Assembly: GCA_017543335.1 (NCBI GenBank)
Contig: JAFYGE010000060.1
Coordinates: forward strand, 1 to 64,000
Direction of reading: 5' to 3'
DNA: 64,000 bases
DNA from: Ruminococcus sp.
GTDB taxonomy: Bacteria > Bacillota > Clostridia > Oscillospirales > Ruminococcaceae
Made by a program: the position numbers and the translations under genes. The notes under the pieces are model-generated. The model searched no databases. It was not told the origin of the DNA and was given only the letters and a program-made list of their open reading frames with translations. Positions 3,573 through 57,327 of this stretch are shown piece after piece; position 1 is the first letter of the stretch; every line of letters begins with the position of its first letter.

Positions 3573-3596
3573 TTGACTTCACTCCTTAAAATTTAG

Positions 3597-3768
3597 GGTA
3601 ATATCGCACAAAGATTGTGCTGAAGATGCACAGTCAGATTTTTCGTCAGATTGTATAGAACTTCCGCAGGCATACTGCCGTATGTCAAGGAAGTTCTGTG
3701 CAAGATGACGGAAAATGTGCAAGCAGATTCAGTACAAAACCGCAAGGTGTGCTTTGTGCGGTATTGCC
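3597..3768. repeat. MITE-like long palindromic element between kinase and ABC genes
   Basis: About 170 bp of imperfect palindrome. The outer arms match over about 17 bases, with the core CGCACAAAG (3605-3613) against CTTTGTGCG (3752-3760). Inside, TTTTCGTCA pairs with TGACGGAAAA with one bulge, and GAACTTCC (3658-3665) pairs with GGAAGTTC (3689-3696) around a loop of about 23 nt. It has no coding capacity. Terminal inverted repeats and lack of a gene suggest a miniature transposable element or a mobile structured RNA. In this operon it also forms a large hairpin in the mRNA between sensor and transporter genes and could alter their relative expression. No second copy is visible in this window. 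Confidence 0.6.
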
Positions 3769-3840
3769 TTAGATCAATGAAGTAATTATATATATTAATA
3801 GTTACTGAATAATTACCGAAAAATAATAAAGCTGTTATTT

Positions 3841-36742: not shown

Positions 36743-36827
36743 GCGAGTGTGCTGGAATAGGCAGACAGGCACGTTTGAGGGGCGTGTGTCGAGAGACGTA
36801 TGGGTTCAAGTCCCATTACTCGCACCA
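36743..36827 (+). tRNA. tRNA-Leu (anticodon GAG)
   Basis: 85-nt class II tRNA with long variable arm. Acceptor GCGAGTG/TACTCGC, discriminator A and encoded CCA. Anticodon stem CACGT/GCGTG with loop TTGAGGG gives GAG. The variable arm is GTGTCGAGAGACGT and the T-loop has GGTTCAAGTCC. Confidence 0.95.
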
Positions 36828-48521: not shown

Positions 48522-49643
48522 TCAAGCATTAAAATACTTATCGAATAATTCCTTATCGCAAGGTTTGAATGAAGCAAATCCTGTATCAGCATACAGCTGA
48601 TCGAGCTTATTTATTATAGCGTCAGCACCGAACTTCTTGTAGTAGTATGCCGGAGCTTCAGCAAGTCCGAGAAGGTCCTGAACAGCCTCGAAGAAGAAGT
48701 TACCCAAGCCGCTTTCCTCTTTTGCAGTGACAGCTTCGTTGAGTATGAGAGCTGCCATTGAAAGAGCAGCATCCGAAGCGTCATTTCCTGTATCCGGAAG
48801 CTTATCTCCGATAAAGCTGAGGAAAGTACCGGTCTTTTCAGGGCATCCGTCGTTTAGCCAGCCCTGCATTTTATCGCAGCCGTAGCTAAGGAGAGCTTTA
48901 TTTCGCTCTATAGTGAAATTGCGTGGATTTTCGCCCATAAGTCCGAGGCTAATGCTGTCGAGCATCTGGAAAGGAGCTGCCACAGAGAACATCTCTGCAA
49001 GAGCCTTATCAAGTTCATTTGCAGATACGTTATACTTCTCACGGAGGTATATAGCGTTAGCTATAACGCAGGATATGAGCTGATTGAAGTATATATGGTA
49101 CTCACCGCTGAGTACGATAGGGTACTTGCCGATATTGAGTATTATCGGACCGAGGTCTCTGATTATAGCTCCGTTTGTCTCCGGGAGGATGTTGAGCTCA
49201 ACATATCCGGAAAGCTTTACAGGATAATAGAAGTGCATACCGCAGCAGCGTTCGAGATTTCTTGTATCCTTGAATACATCAGCTATCTTGAGAGAAGATG
49301 TATTAGTGAGGAGTACACATCTTGGTGAAACTATCTCAGATATAGTCTGGAAGAGTTCCTGTTTGAGTTCAAGCATCTCTGGAGCTGCTTCGATAATGAT
49401 ATCGCAGTTTCTTAATTCGTTGAGGTCGCTTGTGAACTTCATTGATTTAAGTTTTTCGACATAGAGGTCGTGATTTATAAGACCTCTTTTCAGACTTTTA
49501 TCAAGACTTTTTATGACCTCTTTGTGGTCATCTTCTTTTATAAACGGATCAACAACAACAAAGGTGTTATCAACAAGCTTATCAAATAAGAGCCTGAATA
49601 TCTCCTTACCCATTTTGCCGTATCCGACGATTCCTATATTCAT
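48522..49643 (-). CDS. 3-hydroxyacyl-CoA dehydrogenase-like protein
   Basis: 373 aa. NAD-binding Rossmann GIVGYGKMGKEI, IIIEAAPEMLELKQ, TNTSSLKIADV, and the catalytic-His segment MHFYYPVKLSGYVEL that replaces the usual HFFNPV. The C-terminal helical domain is longer than in standard 280-310-aa enzymes. In this operon it is the only candidate to reduce the beta-keto group made by the ketosynthase, working in the reductive direction on an ACP- or CoA-bound substrate. AGGAGG before the ATG; overlaps the crotonase gene by four bases. Confidence 0.9.
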   Translation of the reverse strand: MNIGIVGYGKMGKEIFRLLFDKLVDNTFVVVDPFIKEDDHKEVIKSLDKSLKRGLINHDLYVEKLKSMKFTSDLNELRNCDIIIEAAPEMLELKQELFQTISEIVSPRCVLLTNTSSLKIADVFKDTRNLERCCGMHFYYPVKLSGYVELNILPETNGAIIRDLGPIILNIGKYPIVLSGEYHIYFNQLISCVIANAIYLREKYNVSANELDKALAEMFSVAAPFQMLDSISLGLMGENPRNFTIERNKALLSYGCDKMQGWLNDGCPEKTGTFLSFIGDKLPDTGNDASDAALSMAALILNEAVTAKEESGLGNFFFEAVQDLLGLAEAPAYYYKKFGADAIINKLDQLYADTGFASFKPCDKELFDKYFNA

Positions 49644-50347
49644 TGGACTTTTCCTCCTTTATTGCTCAGGTACCCTAAGAGGTATTCATCTCTGAGGGAC
49701 GGAGCAAATTTTCCTTTTGATGCGATATACTCTATAAGAGCAATTGCTTCTGTCAAACCTTGTTTTTTGTCAGTATATATGTCAGCCCAGCCGAGCTCGA
49801 AGGCTTTTTCTGCCGGAATAAGCTCGCCGGACATTACAAGTTCATAAGCATTCTGCAAGCCGCAAATACTGATAGTTCTTGCAAGACCTCCGAGAGCCGG
49901 CAGTATGCCGAAAGTTGATTCGGGCTGACCAATTCTTGCATTTTTCTCAATTACTCTGTAAGTGCTGTTTACAGCTATTTCGCTTCCGGAGCCGATGCAG
50001 AAACCTGTTACTGCACTGACAGTCGGGAACGGAAGTTCACTGAGAAAAGTGAAGAAGTGTTTTTGTTTTATATGGCTTTCAGGGAGTACCCCTGTAGAGT
50101 CGTCATAGTTTTCATTTGCAGAGCGTTCCAGAAGTGCGTCGACATCTGCACCAACGCAGAAGTGTCTGCCTGCACCTCTGATTATAAGACCTTTATATGA
50201 GTCGGAAGCTGCTTTCTGCTCTATATCTGCCATTACCCTTTCGTACTCCGAGAGAAAGTCTGCGGACATGATATTGTTTACAGGCATATCCATGGAGAGG
50301 ATGAGTATACCGTTCTCACATTCGAGTATCATACCTTTTTCAGCCAT
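49640..50347 (-). CDS. Crotonase-fold enoyl-CoA hydratase/isomerase 2
   Basis: 235 aa from the ATG preceded by GGGAGGCG; a longer frame lies inside the previous gene. Oxyanion-hole strands GAGRHFCVGADV and FCIGSGSEIAVNS, and a Glu in GQPESTFGILPALGG, match catalytically active crotonases. It may dehydrate the 3-hydroxyacyl intermediate or shift its double bond. Fully embedded in the operon. Confidence 0.92.
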   Translation of the reverse strand: MAEKGMILECENGILILSMDMPVNNIMSADFLSEYERVMADIEQKAASDSYKGLIIRGAGRHFCVGADVDALLERSANENYDDSTGVLPESHIKQKHFFTFLSELPFPTVSAVTGFCIGSGSEIAVNSTYRVIEKNARIGQPESTFGILPALGGLARTISICGLQNAYELVMSGELIPAEKAFELGWADIYTDKKQGLTEAIALIEYIASKGKFAPSLRDEYLLGYLSNKGGKVQ

Positions 50348-50771
50348 TCTGAACGCCTCCCGTCTTATCAGCGATGAGCCTGTAGAAAGCTCTTGACTCG
50401 CAGTTGAGGAGCTCCTGAACAGATGCACCTTTGCGAGCAGCGACGAAGCAGGCAGTTATCTCACTTACTTGCTTAGCTGATTTATCCTTGAAAAGTTTTT
50501 CGGTATATTCAGCAGTAGTTTCTGCCGGTATAATAAGGTCGAAGAGGGATTTCAGTTCTTCCGGTACTTCCTTACCGTTTTCGCAAGCTGCGGCAGTCAT
50601 ATAGTCGGCACTGCGGAAAAACTCCTCAGCACTGCTGCACAGCTTCAGGTCGTCATTAATGTGAACTATCAGAAGTGCGGGCGAACCAAGTCTGTCCTTT
50701 GCGGAGATGAGCTCTTCAAGAGAGGAAAGCTCTTTTATTTCTGTTACAAATTCGTTATTATTTATTATCAT
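50340..50771 (-). CDS. Short crotonase-like protein, probably non-catalytic
   Basis: 143 aa from ATG 50771, overlapping the thioesterase gene; a GTG nine bases upstream is an alternative. The C-terminal helix NCESRAFYRLIADKTGG and preceding FVAARKGAS look like the last helices of crotonase-fold proteins, but the oxyanion-hole Gly-rich strands are absent and the protein is about half length. It recalls small crotonase partners such as DpgB that assist a full-length enzyme. Identity is tentative. Confidence 0.6.
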   Translation of the reverse strand: MIINNNEFVTEIKELSSLEELISAKDRLGSPALLIVHINDDLKLCSSAEEFFRSADYMTAAACENGKEVPEELKSLFDLIIPAETTAEYTEKLFKDKSAKQVSEITACFVAARKGASVQELLNCESRAFYRLIADKTGGVQNG

Positions 50772-51171
50772 CCGGATCACTCTCGATGTATTCTTTTATT
50801 GCAGCTGGTACGTCACGAATAATTCGTTCTTTTTTATCGACAAAACCAAACTTGCCTTTTATGACGCATGAAATAACATTAGTATTTTTATTTTTTACCT
50901 TATGCTTGTAGGTAACGAGGTAATCAGAGCAGGTGAACTCAGAATCTATCTGTACTTCATCAAGAAGTTTTAGTTCATGCAGGTATCTTTGACTGCTTTC
51001 CGAGATGACCGGAAACACACCGGCTTCTTCGAGATATTTCAGAAGATCGGACTTCTGAAAGAAGTTCCAGATAGCGGTCTCTCCGTACTGTAAATAAACG
51101 GAATTATTTACGTGACCAAATCCGTCAAGTTCATATCCTCTTACAGTCAGAGAAAATGTAGACTTTCTCAT
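50758..51171 (-). CDS. Hotdog-fold acyl thioesterase
   Basis: 137 aa. YELDGFGHVNNSVYLQYGETA is the 4-hydroxybenzoyl-CoA-thioesterase-type signature with catalytic Asp and GHVNN. Cytoplasmic tetramer-forming family that hydrolyses acyl-CoA or acyl-ACP. Likely releases the finished chain. Its ATG overlaps the crotonase 1 stop (ATGA). Confidence 0.92.
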   Translation of the reverse strand: MRKSTFSLTVRGYELDGFGHVNNSVYLQYGETAIWNFFQKSDLLKYLEEAGVFPVISESSQRYLHELKLLDEVQIDSEFTCSDYLVTYKHKVKNKNTNVISCVIKGKFGFVDKKERIIRDVPAAIKEYIESDPDDNK

Positions 51172-51887
51172 TCAGCATTTACCTCCGAAAGAGCTTTTTC
51201 AAAGCAGCCTTTTGAGGGATCTTTTATACCTGCTTCTGCACGGCAAATAGTACCTATTATGCCGTTTATCTGTGCCATTGACTTACCGGATATAAGCTCT
51301 TTTACAAAAGATATAGTCTCTGGAAGAGCGTCTTTATCCTCAGAAATTTTTGTAATAAGCCCTGTTTCCAGAGCAGATTCAGCTGAAAGCATTTCGCAGC
51401 CGAATATCATTCTTATAGCTTTTTCCTTGCCGACTATACGTGTAAGTTTTTCGATACCGCCCATACCGGGGATGACTCCGTGCATTACTTCGGTAAGTCC
51501 GAGACGGGACTTAGGGGAAGCTATGCGGAAATGGCAGCTCATTGCAACTTCAAGTCCGCCGCCGAAGCAGCCTCCGTTAATTGCGGCAGCAGTTATTATA
51601 GGCAGCTCTTCTATAGTACGCAGAAGTTCTCTTCCTGCTTCAAGCTTATGGGAGAGGGCTTTTTCGTCCGATGCACCGAAAAGGGAGACATCTGCACCGT
51701 GCGAGAAATGTTTACCTTTTCCGGTAATGACAAGCCCCCCGACTTGTTGGTGTTTATCCAACCAGTCGAGGAGCGTTTTACGGTCTATAAATTCCGGCTC
51801 TGTGAGCAAGTTTTTAGGTCCGTTGTCTATGGTGAGAACTGCTATATTATCGTCGGCATAAAGCTCTGATAAATTTGAATTAAGCAT
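51168..51887 (-). CDS. Crotonase-fold enoyl-CoA hydratase/isomerase 1
   Basis: 239 aa from ATG 51887 (AGAGGT upstream, overlapping the ACP stop). Oxyanion-hole segments GKGKHFSHGADV and GGCFGGGLEVAMSC, with Glu residues in GLEVAM and LGLTEVMHGVIPGMGG at the positions of the catalytic pair. Could act as dehydratase, isomerase or decarboxylase in the pathway. Paired with a second crotonase and a short one in the same operon. Confidence 0.93.
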   Translation of the reverse strand: MLNSNLSELYADDNIAVLTIDNGPKNLLTEPEFIDRKTLLDWLDKHQQVGGLVITGKGKHFSHGADVSLFGASDEKALSHKLEAGRELLRTIEELPIITAAAINGGCFGGGLEVAMSCHFRIASPKSRLGLTEVMHGVIPGMGGIEKLTRIVGKEKAIRMIFGCEMLSAESALETGLITKISEDKDALPETISFVKELISGKSMAQINGIIGTICRAEAGIKDPSKGCFEKALSEVNAE

Positions 51888-51896
51888 CCGCACCTC

Positions 51897-52199
51897 TTAC
51901 TGATTTACAATATCGTTACCGTACTGATATACCTTGTAGAACATTTCAACAACATCTTTCATGGTATCTATTGATGCTTTGAGCATATACTTTCCGATGC
52001 TCTGAAGCTTGATATCGAGTCCGTACTTGTCGGAAGTCATTTCAATAAGTTCAACGAACATAAGCGAATCGCTTCCAAGGTCCTCCTGCGGATTAGTTTC
52101 CATTGTGATCTCACTTTTGTCGATCTCGCACTCTTCTGCGTAGTAATCAAATATCATTTCCTTGATTTCGTTTTGGATCTCTGGTGTGATTTCTCTCAT
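51897..52199 (-). CDS. Acyl carrier protein 1
   Basis: 100 aa. Phosphopantetheine attachment serine in EDLGSDSLMFVELIEM. Longer C-terminus than ordinary AcpP and acidic throughout. AAGGAGG before the ATG. Placed next to the acyltransferase, so probably the malonyl/elongation carrier. Confidence 0.94.
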   Translation of the reverse strand: MREITPEIQNEIKEMIFDYYAEECEIDKSEITMETNPQEDLGSDSLMFVELIEMTSDKYGLDIKLQSIGKYMLKASIDTMKDVVEMFYKVYQYGNDIVNQ

Positions 52200-52245
52200 A
52201 GTGATATCCTCCTTAAAAAATATAATGATATAAAATAAAATAAAA

Positions 52246-53157
52246 TTATATATTTCCCGAAAAAACGTCTTCGAGAGTATAAATTTTACATTTTCGGCTA
52301 ACTCTTGAGAACTTATGTACAGCTCCGTTAGAGCTTACGTCGAAGAACTCTTTTACACCGCTTTCTTCAAGCTTTTTCAGAGCTATATCCCAGCGGATAG
52401 GGGTAGTGATATTAAGCAGATTTTCTCTTTTTACTTCTTCTGCCGTAGTCATAATGTTGTGGTCGAAAACAGAAATTATAGGATATTTCGGATCCTTATA
52501 CTGTATATTTCTGCATACTTCCATATGTTCCTGAGAATAGGCTTCTATAATAGGATTATGGAAAGCGGTCTCAGTGCCCATACTGAAAGCCTTTATAGCA
52601 CCTTCACTCAAAGCAAGTTCAATAGCTTTGTTTACTGCCTCAGCTTTACTGCATATCATTACATGAAAGCTTGAATTTCCGCTGCCGATCATAAGTTCAT
52701 CGGAGGAGAAATGTCCGTTCAGAAGTTCGGACAAATCGTCATAGGAGAAGCCAATAATAACTCCCATATCGAGTTTCAAGCCATGTTCCTTGAGGGATCG
52801 GAACATTGAGCGGTGAGACATCATGAGGTCATGAGAGTCCTCATAATTCATAGAGCCGAAACAAGCACTTATACTTACTATACCTGAGCTGTATCCTGCA
52901 CCTATATCAGGAATGATACCTTTTTCTATGTAGTATTCATAAACAACTCTGTCAGTAAGTAAGGGTACTATCCATTCTGCGACTTTGACATCGTATCCGG
53001 TATTTTTTTCTATATCTTTATTCAATCCGAGTCTGTCAAAGGCAACGTCGAAATAATGAGTATACCGGTCCATTAATTCCGGAGGAAGTTTTACGAGTAA
53101 TTTTTCCGGACGTGAACCGATGGCATTAAAAAGAAATGCACGTTTGAGATTATCCAT
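52246..53157 (-). CDS. Malonyl-CoA:ACP acyltransferase-like protein
   Basis: 303 aa, normal size for a stand-alone FabD-type acyltransferase. Nucleophile elbow GAGYSSGIVS (GxSxG, a variant of GHSLG), the Arg region MMSHRSMFRS and the catalytic His in TETAFHNPIIE. The N-terminus (AFLFNAIGSRPEKL) replaces the usual FPGQG. It loads extender units, presumably malonyl, on the operon's carrier protein. First gene of the operon, AAGGAG before the ATG. Confidence 0.88.
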   Translation of the reverse strand: MDNLKRAFLFNAIGSRPEKLLVKLPPELMDRYTHYFDVAFDRLGLNKDIEKNTGYDVKVAEWIVPLLTDRVVYEYYIEKGIIPDIGAGYSSGIVSISACFGSMNYEDSHDLMMSHRSMFRSLKEHGLKLDMGVIIGFSYDDLSELLNGHFSSDELMIGSGNSSFHVMICSKAEAVNKAIELALSEGAIKAFSMGTETAFHNPIIEAYSQEHMEVCRNIQYKDPKYPIISVFDHNIMTTAEEVKRENLLNITTPIRWDIALKKLEESGVKEFFDVSSNGAVHKFSRVSRKCKIYTLEDVFSGNI

Positions 53158-54553: not shown

Positions 54554-55174
54554 TTATTTTTTGTCGGTGTTTTTGATAAGTTTTGCTTTGAAGAGGGCAC
54601 ATCCGACTGCTCCTGTTATGACTGTAGCGGCTATCATTTCAAATACCGCATTGATACCTACTGAAGCAACGATGTAAACGAGGATATTTCTTCCGTCTAT
54701 TTTATCTTTCATGTAGCTTGTGTTTCCGAAGAGTGCGACCAGTGAGAACATGAAAAATGCTGTATTGAAAAACGCTGTACAGAATCCGGTAACGAAGCAG
54801 GATACTTTTACATTTGATACTTTTGAGAAAAATTTGAAGATACATCCTGCAAGGAAGCCGTCCAGAGCACGGGGGACAAATCTCTGTATGAACGCAAGGA
54901 CAGGATTTATGTCGACAAGAGCAGCTCCCATTGAACTGATAATACCTATGCCGAAGCATTGCAGAAAGCTGAACAGTCCAAATACAGAGCCGATGATGAG
55001 TCCGCCAATAGGTCCGAGAGCTACTGCCGCTATCGCTACAGGTATAACGTTCAGAGTGATAACTAATGGACCGACAGGTATCGAGCCGACAGGAGTGAAT
55101 GAGAACAATACAACTATTGCCGAGAGCAGTCCGAGCAGAACCATAGATTTGGTTGTGAATTTAGTTTTGATCAT
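54554..55174 (-). CDS. ECF transporter S component (vitamin type)
   Basis: 206 aa with six membrane helices, the size of energy-coupling-factor substrate-binding subunits. An alanine-type N-terminal motif (LLGLLSAIVVLFSF), IPVAIAAVALGPIGGLIIG and INPVLAFIQRFVPRALDG are typical of S components. The last two resemble pantothenate- and folate-type subunits more than riboflavin or thiamine ones. The EcfAA'T module must be elsewhere. AGGAGGT-like site before the ATG. The leader is short and shows no vitamin riboswitch. Confidence 0.85.
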   Translation of the reverse strand: MIKTKFTTKSMVLLGLLSAIVVLFSFTPVGSIPVGPLVITLNVIPVAIAAVALGPIGGLIIGSVFGLFSFLQCFGIGIISSMGAALVDINPVLAFIQRFVPRALDGFLAGCIFKFFSKVSNVKVSCFVTGFCTAFFNTAFFMFSLVALFGNTSYMKDKIDGRNILVYIVASVGINAVFEMIAATVITGAVGCALFKAKLIKNTDKK

Positions 55175-55237: not shown

Positions 55238-55515
55238 TACATATTTATATTTTTTTGAGTTTATATCAGGAGTATGATAATATTTAAACTAATACAATAT
55301 ATCATTAAACTTATTGTATATACTTTGAGTATAAAAATAATATATGAAAAATATATCGATAATATTTGATTTTAAAGCTTGCTTATGAGCGTAAAAATAG
55401 AAAAGTGTTGATTTGTTGTACAAAAGACACAATAAAGAATAGTGTTTTTTGTTGTTCATGTGATTTATACATAAAATCGGAGCTTTATTTTCTATTTTTT
55501 GTTCACAAAAAAACA
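55238..55515. other. AT-rich gene-free stretch
   Basis: Very A/T-rich with A- and T-tracts at near-helical spacing. Open frames on either strand are short and of low-complexity composition. No gene or structured element recognised. It may simply be a curved upstream region of the non-coding RNA promoter. Confidence 0.5.
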
Positions 55516-55544
55516 TTGCATTTCATATATAAATATGATATAAT
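55516..55544 (+). promoter_or_regulatory. Promoter of the large non-coding RNA
   Basis: TTGCAT, 17-bp spacer, TATAAT. The start of transcription is expected near 55551, at the first arm of the RNA's terminal helix. Confidence 0.75.
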
Positions 55545-55548
55545 GATA

Positions 55549-56191
55549 TTGCATAAATCAATAATTGTGTAATATTTATCTGCAAGGGTACGGGGTGGTT
55601 ATATGATTTATGCAAAAATCGGAAAGGATGAGTTGCTATGAGAATGTGATCTGGAAAACGTCCGGCAGACGTTATCCCCGTATGTCATACCGGCATTTGA
55701 GAGTGGTTTGTCAGTATGACGGCATCCATAGGAACCGGAGCTTATGATAAAACTTTGATTCAAAAGAAATTATGGGCGTTATTTCTTTTGATACTCCGGT
55801 AAAAAGGCAGAGCAGTTCCGTATTGCATCGTTTTAAGGCGGCGGTGCTGAGGATGTTTGTTAAGCTCGCCTTTCATCGATACTGTCTTTGATTTGGAAAA
55901 GACGGTGACATCAGCATATCAGATGCTGATATAGAAAAAGGTTTGGATAGAAAATGATCGTATCGGTCAAAAATCGTTCTTTTGGACACATTATTATTTT
56001 ATATCATACCAGACAGAACTGCACTTTTGTCTGAGTATACCCTCTAATATTCCGGTATCTTTCATTAATGCTCTCACCAGTGAGATGTGAGTGAGACCAT
56101 TATGGGCGATGAAAGATGCTTATATTCAAATTAAAACTTATTTGTTCGGATACTGAAAGATCCTTCCGTGAAATCGGAAGGATTTTTTTGC
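55549..56191 (+). ncRNA. Large structured non-coding RNA (about 640 nt)
   Basis: No open frame with a ribosome site beyond a few codons, yet it has a promoter in front and a strong terminator at its end (stem ATCCTTCCG/CGGAAGGAT, 56160-56183, then seven T). Perfect or near-perfect helices fill it: TTGCATAAATCA (55549) with TGATTTATGCAA (55604); AACGTC/GACGTT (55657-55673); GTCATAC/GTATGAC (55684, 55714); ACCGGAG/CTCCGGT (55734, 55794) enclosing TCAAAAGAAAT/ATTTCTTTTGA; AAGGCG/CGCCTT (55835, 55867); ACTGTCTTT/AAAGACGGT near 55880; ATCAGCAT/ATGCTGAT (55910-55930); AGACAGAA/TTTTGTCT (56011-56032); ATCTTTCAT/ATGAAAGAT (56057, 56109) around TCTCAC/GTGAGA. Size and complexity match ornate large RNA classes (ROOL, GOLLD, OLE); class membership unverified. 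Confidence 0.75.
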
Positions 56192-56200
56192 TGTAAGGGG

Positions 56201-56229
56201 TTGTAAAATCGTGTTCTGTTTGGTATAAT
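56201..56229 (+). promoter_or_regulatory. Promoter of the corA transcript
   Basis: TTGTAA, 17-bp spacer, TATAAT, directly after the non-coding RNA terminator. The predicted leader before the CorA start is about 160 nt. Confidence 0.72.
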
Positions 56230-56272
56230 ATAAATATAAATATAAATGTATTATGATAATCGGAGGTGCGTT

Positions 56273-56314
56273 ATGAGTGTTGACCCTTATGGGAGTATTA
56301 TATTGATCCCTTGA
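56273..56314 (+). CDS. Leader peptide (13 aa) upstream of corA
   Basis: MSVDPYGSIILIP, then TGA. GGAGG lies six bases before the ATG, a better ribosome site than that of corA itself. It contains an Asp-Pro pair and ends Ile-Pro before the stop, both able to slow or destabilise ribosomes. The stop codon is immediately followed by the first arm of a leader hairpin, the arrangement expected of a translational attenuator. Confidence 0.65.
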   Translation: MSVDPYGSIILIP

Positions 56315-56391
56315 TCCGGCGGATGCTCATGCTCACTTGCCTTCGCCGGAAATTCTGGCGAAAGGAGCAATGTCTGTTTTTATGACAGACA
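56315..56391 (+). promoter_or_regulatory. Attenuator-like leader with alternative hairpins controlling corA
   Basis: Hairpin A: TCCGGCG (56315-56321) with CGCCGGA (56344-56350). Hairpin B: CCTTCGCC (56340-56347) with GGCGAAAGG (56357-56365). They share bases and exclude each other; B hides the AAAGGAG ribosome site. A third hairpin TGTCTGT/ACAGACA (56371-56391) lies between that site and the corA start and, when folded, leaves about six bases between GGAG and ATG. Confidence 0.65.
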
Positions 56392-56394
56392 CGT

Positions 56395-57327
56395 ATGATT
56401 ATGATAAGTTTTTACACTAATGAAAACGGAAAGCTCACTCAATGCGATGAGCCTTCTGTGGGATGCTGGATCTCAGTTATAGATCCGACACCTCAGGAAA
56501 TTATTGAACTCATAGAGACTTATGGTCTTGACAGCGGTTTCGTTAAGTCCTCTCTCGATGAGGAGGAGTCGTCACGTATAGAGCGTGAGGACGATCAGAC
56601 CCTCGTTATCATCGATACCCCTGTATCTACTGTTGACGAGGATCAGACCAGAAACTTCTATACCCAGCCTATCGGCATAATTATTAATGAGGACTATGTC
56701 TTCACTATCTCACTAAAAGAAACTCAGATACTTAAAGAAGCTATGCACGGTGGGATAAGAAATCTGCGTCCGAGCTTTAAAACACGATTCGTTTTGCAGC
56801 TTCTTCTTAGAATAGCAGCTCTCTTCCTTACTCACCTTAAACAGATCGACAAGATATCATCTGCTGCTGAGCAGCAGCTTCACGATGCGATGAAGAATGA
56901 GCTTCTCATGCAGCTCCTTGCTCTTGAAAAGTCACTCGTATATTTCTCGACTTCTTTAAAAGCCAACGAAGCTACAATAGAAAAGATATTCCGTGGCAGA
57001 GTAATAAAGCTCTACGATGAGGATCAGGACCTTCTTGAAGATGTTCTGATCGAGATGAAACAGGCTATCGAAATGGCAAGCATATACACCGGCATCCTAT
57101 CCAGTATGATGGACGGATTTTCGTCGATAATCTCTAATAACCTTAACCTCGTTATGTGGAGATTGACCATTATCACCGTCGTTCTGGAGATACCTAATAT
57201 CATGTTCGCATTTTACGGTATCAATACCGTCGACCTGCCTATGCCGTATACGTGGTTCGCTATTACACTTACCATCTTCCTGACCGGTATAACTGCATTT
57301 GCTCTTATGAAATGGAAAAAGAAATAA
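56395..57327 (+). CDS. CorA-family divalent cation transporter
   Basis: 310 aa from ATG 56395; ATG 56401 is the alternative. The long N-terminal cytoplasmic domain (1-250) has a helical stalk, and there are two C-terminal membrane helices (about 252-275 and 285-305). The selectivity signature normally YGMN reads FYGINT (GIN for GMN). The family forms pentamers carrying Mg2+ or other divalent ions. Expression is probably controlled by the leader peptide and hairpins upstream; no M-box features are seen. Confidence 0.88.
   Translation: MIMISFYTNENGKLTQCDEPSVGCWISVIDPTPQEIIELIETYGLDSGFVKSSLDEEESSRIEREDDQTLVIIDTPVSTVDEDQTRNFYTQPIGIIINEDYVFTISLKETQILKEAMHGGIRNLRPSFKTRFVLQLLLRIAALFLTHLKQIDKISSAAEQQLHDAMKNELLMQLLALEKSLVYFSTSLKANEATIEKIFRGRVIKLYDEDQDLLEDVLIEMKQAIEMASIYTGILSSMMDGFSSIISNNLNLVMWRLTIITVVLEIPNIMFAFYGINTVDLPMPYTWFAITLTIFLTGITAFALMKWKKK

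Follow-up and report, generated by a model that had tools for sequence, protein, structure and literature searches.

A candidate lineage-specific structured RNA in the regulatory shell left by a lost adhesin gene in Ruminococcus

In this work we analysed a stretch of DNA of 64,000 nucleotides (the window) from a Ruminococcus sp. draft genome (2.4 Mb, 86% complete), in which a large non-coding RNA had been predicted. The region 55550-56190 is non-coding and strongly folded, with a promoter on one side and a terminator on the other. Sequence comparisons favour, by a modest preponderance, the view that this unit is a functional lineage-specific structured RNA, lodged where an adhesin gene was lost but its regulatory shell remained. 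They also suggest that the gene is probably of recent origin and restricted to its lineage, rather than one for a known large RNA (ROOL or OLE, for example). The elements of the locus are as follows.

54554 to 55174, minus strand: ECF transporter S component, the divergent upstream neighbour (Pfam ECF_trnsprt, 3.1e-16).
55516 to 55544, plus strand: promoter TTGCAT-17 nt-TATAAT, homologous to the giant adhesin gene promoter of relatives.
55621 to 55649, plus strand: probable remnant of the start and ribosome-binding site (GGAAAGGATG) of the adhesin gene, with a frame that stops after three codons, at 55647.
56155 to 56190, plus strand: intrinsic terminator, a hairpin (56155-56188) of up to 14 pairs and then a T run.
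56201 to 56229, plus strand: separate promoter-like site of CorA, TTGTAA-17-TATAAT, found by the consensus promoter scan.
56395 to 57327, plus strand: CorA Mg2+ transporter, the downstream neighbour (Pfam CorA, 2.8e-46).

The original prediction of a bounded, ornate non-coding unit of about 640 nt was borne out. On the plus strand the unit folds at -189.8 kcal/mol, against -157.3 (sd 7.9) for 20 shuffles (z -4.1), and no open reading frame (ORF) of at least 60 amino acids (aa) was found on either strand between 55573 and 56394. The unit contains 12 ORFs of at least 20 aa. Seven of these are broken or frameshifted in G001, the genome of a related species that carries the same unit, and the five that remain open have at most three changed codons each, too few for judgement; a small protein encoded by the unit is thus not supported. 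The proposed sigma-A promoter was absent from a consensus promoter and terminator scan of the window because its first hexamer agrees with the consensus at only three of six positions, but the site is homologous to the promoter of relatives. The terminator was likewise absent from the scan, but its hairpin and T run are present. Since the scan lists neither boundary, the limits of the unit rest on the sequence and on the relatives, and it is homology with the relatives that makes the promoter credible.

The relatives have, in the interval from the same divergent ECF gene to CorA, a giant gene for a sortase-type adhesin (about 1100-4200 aa). Seven of the eight ECF-to-CorA intervals fetched contain a giant ORF (1106-3917 aa) that starts about 360-570 nt past the divergent ECF gene, and the eighth (G032) holds other genes. 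Just before the CorA leader, the end of a giant protein, with a Thr-rich or sortase-like PxTG C-terminus, was present at 10 of the 13 loci examined, which were not a random sample. Further ORFs lie between adhesin and CorA in L124, the adhesin is evident in the ECF-to-CorA interval of L120, and at other loci (e.g. L013, L020 and L021) inspection by eye revealed no end of an adhesin in front of CorA. Pfam pAdhesive_15 was detected in both such proteins scanned, and SpaA in one of them. In six of the seven CorA-bearing stretches of relatives besides G001, CorA is followed on the same strand by GerA, GerAB and GerAC (the Ger genes are inverted in G075), and the gene preceding CorA varies.

The 5' leaders of the giant adhesin genes have the motif GCGNACA in common (16 of 16 aligned). 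Folded alone, 14 of the 16, as counted by reading the folds, have a single long, irregular hairpin that precedes the ribosome-binding site, G035 and G023 being the exceptions. The shared leader was seen at loci L118-L124, L003, L078, L092, L094, L096-L098, L101, L104 and L106, and Rfam at gathering gave no match to it in L118-L124. It is possible that this leader is a regulatory element of adhesin mRNAs.

Several observations connect the unit with this adhesin shell. The adhesin promoter (ATTGCAATTTGTATA...TATAAT) corresponds to the promoter of the RNA, and the G001 copy begins with exactly ATTGCAATTTGTATA. When 15 adhesin 5' ends (promoter and leader) were combined into a DNA profile, it matched the window at 55501-55678 (E 3.8e-9) and G001 at the corresponding place (E 9.2e-9), against a best E of 5.8 in the reversed window. 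With blastn, the promoter was 83% identical over 48 nt (E 4e-8) to that of G024, a genome outside the 15-member profile that was added to the 16-leader alignment. A model of the 16 adhesin leaders with their ribosome-binding sites (R3), built without the window or G001 and in effect a sequence model (only two pairs in the alignment consensus), ranked 55553-55630 first over 91 kb (29.2 bits, E 0.003), followed by the corresponding place in G001 (26.9 bits); the third-best match scored 18.8. Nhmmer profiles of the adhesin ends without the promoter (m2 and m3) missed the window locus. The region of the ribosome-binding site and start scored 32 against G069, the best of the 16 leaders, compared with 15.0 (sd 2.3) for shuffles (0 of 5000 as high); for the other valid leaders P ranged from 0.007 to 0.38, G064 and G072 having been excluded from this comparison. 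Of the three non-self hits that a model of the 5' part of the RNA (R1) gave in a blind search of 125 genomes of the genus, one was the start of this adhesin gene in G069. The leader hairpin of the RNA keeps a 12-bp perfect base but not the GCGNACA tip. At the other end, the terminator of the unit resembles the one between adhesin and CorA in G081 and G087 (39 nt, 82%, E 0.003 in a small set). It is very likely, on these similarities, that promoter, leader and ribosome-binding site/start region form an adhesin-derived shell, and the terminator probably belonged to the adhesin gene as well.

What lies inside the shell is different. The adhesin ORF is absent at the window locus and about 500 nt of hairpins, matching nothing, stand in its place; the part from about 55735 to 56150 gave no match to the examined adhesins or to anything else searched. 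A search for a full adhesin of the relatives' kind, with one adhesin as query, found none in the genomes G000 and G001, both of which are incomplete, and yielded a single weak match of 84-86 aa in each. The main rival explanation starts from this point: the adhesin gene would have been deleted, leaving its promoter and terminator, and the hairpin-rich remainder would be a functionless, decaying relic. The adhesin origin of promoter, leader and start region, the narrow distribution described below, and a middle part without homologue among the sequences searched are all compatible with such decay. They have to be weighed against a middle part that is unlike adhesin coding sequence, a fold far better than that of shuffles, and the pattern of substitutions between the two carriers.

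Between positions 55547 and 56151, the window and G001 are identical at 565 of 604 positions (93.5%), with one gap and 39 substitutions. This exceeds the identity at neighbouring four-fold sites (84/104 in the ECF gene, 114/130 in CorA), which over the in-frame genes, GerAB left out, amounts to 1116/1307 (about 85%) with a wide spread per gene, from 168/234 (GerA) to 47/49; in the upstream intergenic region 233 of 265 positions are identical. Within the unit, conservation is highest in the 5' leader (69/71) and the 3' part (207/216), and 55734-55935 (183/201, 91%) is near the neutral level and not clearly above it. The substitutions also avoid stems: those of G001 break 8 pairs of the window MEA structure, compared with 16.8 (sd 2.9) expected, and none of 634 circular shifts was as extreme. 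The z score of this effect is -3.2, against a mean of -0.5 (sd 0.8) in 37 neighbourhood windows, all less extreme; these are the 37 of 42 half-overlapping windows with the required 15 substitutions, some of them overlapping the target, as does the lowest (z -2.5), the lowest non-overlapping one being at -1.85. When given the 39 G001 substitutions, the window sequence keeps its fold energy, a result matched by only one of 100 random mutants. The effect is weak (P 0.04) with the window MFE structure in place of the MEA or centroid structure, and the stems of the minus-strand fold are avoided equally. By the original prediction, homologues lacking compensatory changes would count against it; stems are spared in G001, and only one pair is changed on both sides between the two species. 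These substitutions are therefore evidence of constraint, not of rich covariation, and as there are only two carrier species the constraint rests on 39 substitutions. Taken together, these data leave the decaying relic unlikely, though still the foremost competitor, and make a functional RNA somewhat more likely.

The predicted fold of the RNA is elaborate. At least nine helices had been claimed, and the two-species consensus fold contains 15, each of 6-14 uninterrupted pairs; a long-range helix closes the structure. The main elements are these.

55549 to 55615, plus strand: 5' leader hairpin, a homologue of the adhesin mRNA leader; it comprises inner helices and a perfect closing helix of 12 bp (TTGCATAAATCA/TGATTTATGCAA).
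55618 to 55634, plus strand: 5' strand of the predicted long-range closing helix (two-species consensus fold).
55682 to 55725, plus strand: hairpin of the consensus fold, in which one pair is changed on both sides and three on one side.
55760 to 55791, plus strand: 11-bp perfect hairpin (TCAAAAGAAAT/ATTTCTTTTGA), present in the two-species consensus fold.
55880 to 55930, plus strand: two neighbouring hairpins of 10 and 8 pairs (two-species consensus fold).
55936 to 56151, plus strand: 3' hairpin domain, 207/216 identical in the two species, including a 13-bp helix (56054-56066/56108-56120).
56135 to 56151, plus strand: 3' strand of the predicted long-range closing helix (two-species consensus fold).

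The closing helix has 15 pairs in three runs in the consensus fold and would pair the old ribosome-binding site with 56135-56151. It is present in both single-sequence folds beside the consensus and in the centroid, and absent from the minimum-energy fold of the window. For the hairpin at 55682-55725, an alternative register (GTCATAC/GTATGAC) loses one pair in G001, by eye. A pseudoknot TACGGGG/CCCCGTA, in which G001 loses one pair, is not claimed. Within the RNA, an exact 10-nt repeat (ATTATGGGCG) occurs at 55769-55778 and 56099-56108, and degenerate repeats about 190 nt apart occupy 55870-55937 and 56059-56130; these internal repeats are perhaps an old duplication, or chance.

The minus strand of the unit is equally structured (z -6.1), so that folding alone leaves the strand unassigned. 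In a plus-strand scan of the window (99 tiles of 640 nt, 12 shuffles each, pooled sd), the target had a z of -5.7 and was among the most structured parts of the window. Four tiles were equally extreme. One of them (55681) overlaps the unit, and the others, starting at 1, 3201 and 36481, contain a tRNA gene or a nested inverted repeat. The latter, at 3586-3770, is long, intergenic and MITE-like (GGTAATATCGCACAAAG ... CTTTGTGCGGTATTGCC), and similar letters were seen by eye near the ECF gene in L121. This repeat and the strong hairpins on both strands of the unit would fit a third explanation, by which a palindromic mobile or repeat element was inserted in an adhesin relic and makes up the middle part. 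We consider this improbable: a second copy is absent from the own genome at E 0.001, no terminal inverted repeat that flanks the middle part stands out, the arm ATACCGG differs in G001, and the searches gave no phage match and a single plasmid match of 28 nt (E 0.6). For viral contigs, a search with three exact patterns returned none.

The RNA has a narrow distribution. Blastn against 125 genomes of the genus found one clear homologue, G001, 94% identical and at the same locus; beyond G001, among the matches listed for 60 and for 125 genomes, there were only weak ones. Models of the 5' part (R1) and the 3' part (R2) detected, beyond weak hits, only the own locus and that of G001 in the 125 genus genomes, and only the own locus in 396 genomes of the family, a draw that did not include G001. 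The larger genome searches used stricter filters and many genomes are incomplete, so that absence here means 'not found'. The weak hits were set aside: the R1 match in G390 sits in a relaxase-like gene (by eye); the R2 match in G447 (32 bits, E 9e-6 for one genome) is an AT-rich stretch before a ribosomal L33-secE-like pair and was judged by eye to be chance, as were those in G216, almost wholly within coding sequence, and G324, a 59-nt alignment of 19% GC; and the second R2 matches in G000 (contig C71) and G001 (contig C5) are antisense in a GTPase-like gene (by eye). In Ruminococcus flavefaciens MC2020 (L086 700-780; L008), a 67-nt stretch that precedes a feoB-like gene (a label read from sequence) by about 360 nt may be homologous to the RNA's 5' end, to which its similarity is 76%.

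The position directly upstream of CorA, common to both carriers, suggested another reading, in which the unit would be a giant cis-regulatory leader of CorA with controlled termination at 56190, and the original prediction had drawn attention to the pairing with a Mg2+ transporter. This pairing did not hold up, as CorA is present in 116 of the 125 genus genomes and the RNA was found in two. Regulation of CorA by the RNA is unlikely because CorA has a promoter-like site of its own (56201-56229) and, in 30 of 30 loci (only two of which carry the RNA), a conserved leader that includes a small ORF; moreover, the gene upstream of CorA differs between relatives. We therefore rejected the CorA leader reading, whose probability we regard as very small. 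The leader sample consisted of window positions 56201-56420 and 30 loci (L009-L038), the best CorA matches. In it, the small ORF starts MS(S/A/T/V)DPYG(N/S/H) or MN(A/P)DPYGN behind a strong ribosome-binding site, and in many loci, by eye, a hairpin ends near GGCGAAAGGAGC before corA. Rfam returned nothing at this leader beyond weak chance-level matches such as SNORD10. By analogy with corL/mgtL, described in PMC11552253 as Mg2+-sensing leaders of enterics, the CorA leader of the genus could be a sensor.

The remaining surroundings of the unit are not phage-like, since among 10 neighbouring proteins compared with PHROGs only an HTH regulator and CorA matched phage families, none of them structural. 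The only tRNA genes of the window are at 11-86 and 36743-36827; the second, a tRNA-Leu (GAG), was found by ARAGORN and is absent from the Rfam list at gathering. Elsewhere in the window, 49640-53157 holds consecutive genes for an acyltransferase-like protein (below Pfam's cut-off), an acyl carrier and two enoyl-CoA-hydratase-like proteins (the hydratase label was read from sequence), and this row is perhaps a biosynthetic cluster.

In conclusion, we propose the following course of events for the preferred reading, a functional RNA in an adhesin-derived shell. The giant sortase-anchored adhesin ORF would have been lost while its regulatory shell stayed. Transcription from the old adhesin promoter would now yield a stable RNA of about 640 nt, in which the closing helix may engage the old ribosome-binding site and which would end at the adhesin-like terminator directly before the CorA promoter; the unit would then act as RNA. 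That a functional large structured RNA was born in this manner in one lineage, by takeover of the adhesin promoter, mRNA leader hairpin and terminator with loss of the protein, is a scenario that we advance tentatively and hold to be slightly less than evenly probable. The likeliest role would be regulation in trans, with the RNA produced under the conditions in which the adhesin was formerly needed; this is a guess, and at best a rather unlikely one.

To our knowledge large structured bacterial RNAs are few, and the origin of one has not been traced. In the present case, relatives still have at this locus what is presumed to be the ancestor, a giant adhesin transcription unit, so that the steps from an mRNA to a non-coding RNA could be followed. 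If the proposal is correct, this would be a bacterial equivalent of the non-coding RNA genes that arise from dead protein genes. If the unit is only a relic, the lesson is that a promoter, a terminator and an ornate fold alone do not make a new RNA class.

Among the known systems closest to the unit are the giant sortase-anchored adhesin genes of the genus (pAdhesive_15 / SpaA), with which it shares the locus, promoter, leader and ribosome-binding site/start region, together with a similar terminator, and from which it differs in lacking the ORF of about 1100-4200 aa and having about 500 nt of hairpins instead. Membership of ROOL, GOLLD, OLE, raiA or HEARO had been raised by the original prediction, and only size and ornate fold favour a diverged member of one of these families. 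Rfam at gathering, run on the whole window, assigned no family to the unit and matched only a tRNA elsewhere; with E up to 10, region 55300-56400 gave ten weak matches and none to ROOL, GOLLD, OLE, raiA or HEARO. The best of the ten, the PyrR binding site (RF00515, 56055-56192, E 0.01), was rejected at 34.4 bits for a gathering cut-off of 54. Together with the adhesin-derived 5' end and the setting devoid of phage character, these searches largely refute a diverged known large RNA, which we regard as hardly tenable. Thus, from the overall original reading, the bounded ornate unit and the sparing of its stems in G001 were retained, and family membership was abandoned together with the link to CorA and Mg2+. 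A limited search of open-licence papers did not reveal this RNA in the literature. OLE is similar as a large structured RNA, with a Mg2+ link drawn in the original prediction via CorA, but the unit has no Rfam match and its CorA neighbour occurs without the RNA across the genus. With ROOL, an RNA in the size class of about 600 nt whose name is tied to the rumen, the unit has in common its size, its many helices and its non-coding nature. However, according to PMC12286853, it is phages and prophages that encode ROOL, in many cases close to tRNA islands. From the tRNA genes and the PHROGs comparison of the 10 neighbours, the unit has no such setting: no phage genes were found nearby, its 5' end is adhesin-derived and it has no Rfam match. 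Finally, Raghavan et al. in 2015 reportedly described young bacterial sRNAs formed after genome rearrangement. These would resemble the present case in being new RNA genes of narrow range on pre-existing regulatory DNA, but the RNA considered here would be about 640 nt long, multi-helical and housed in the shell of one identifiable protein gene.
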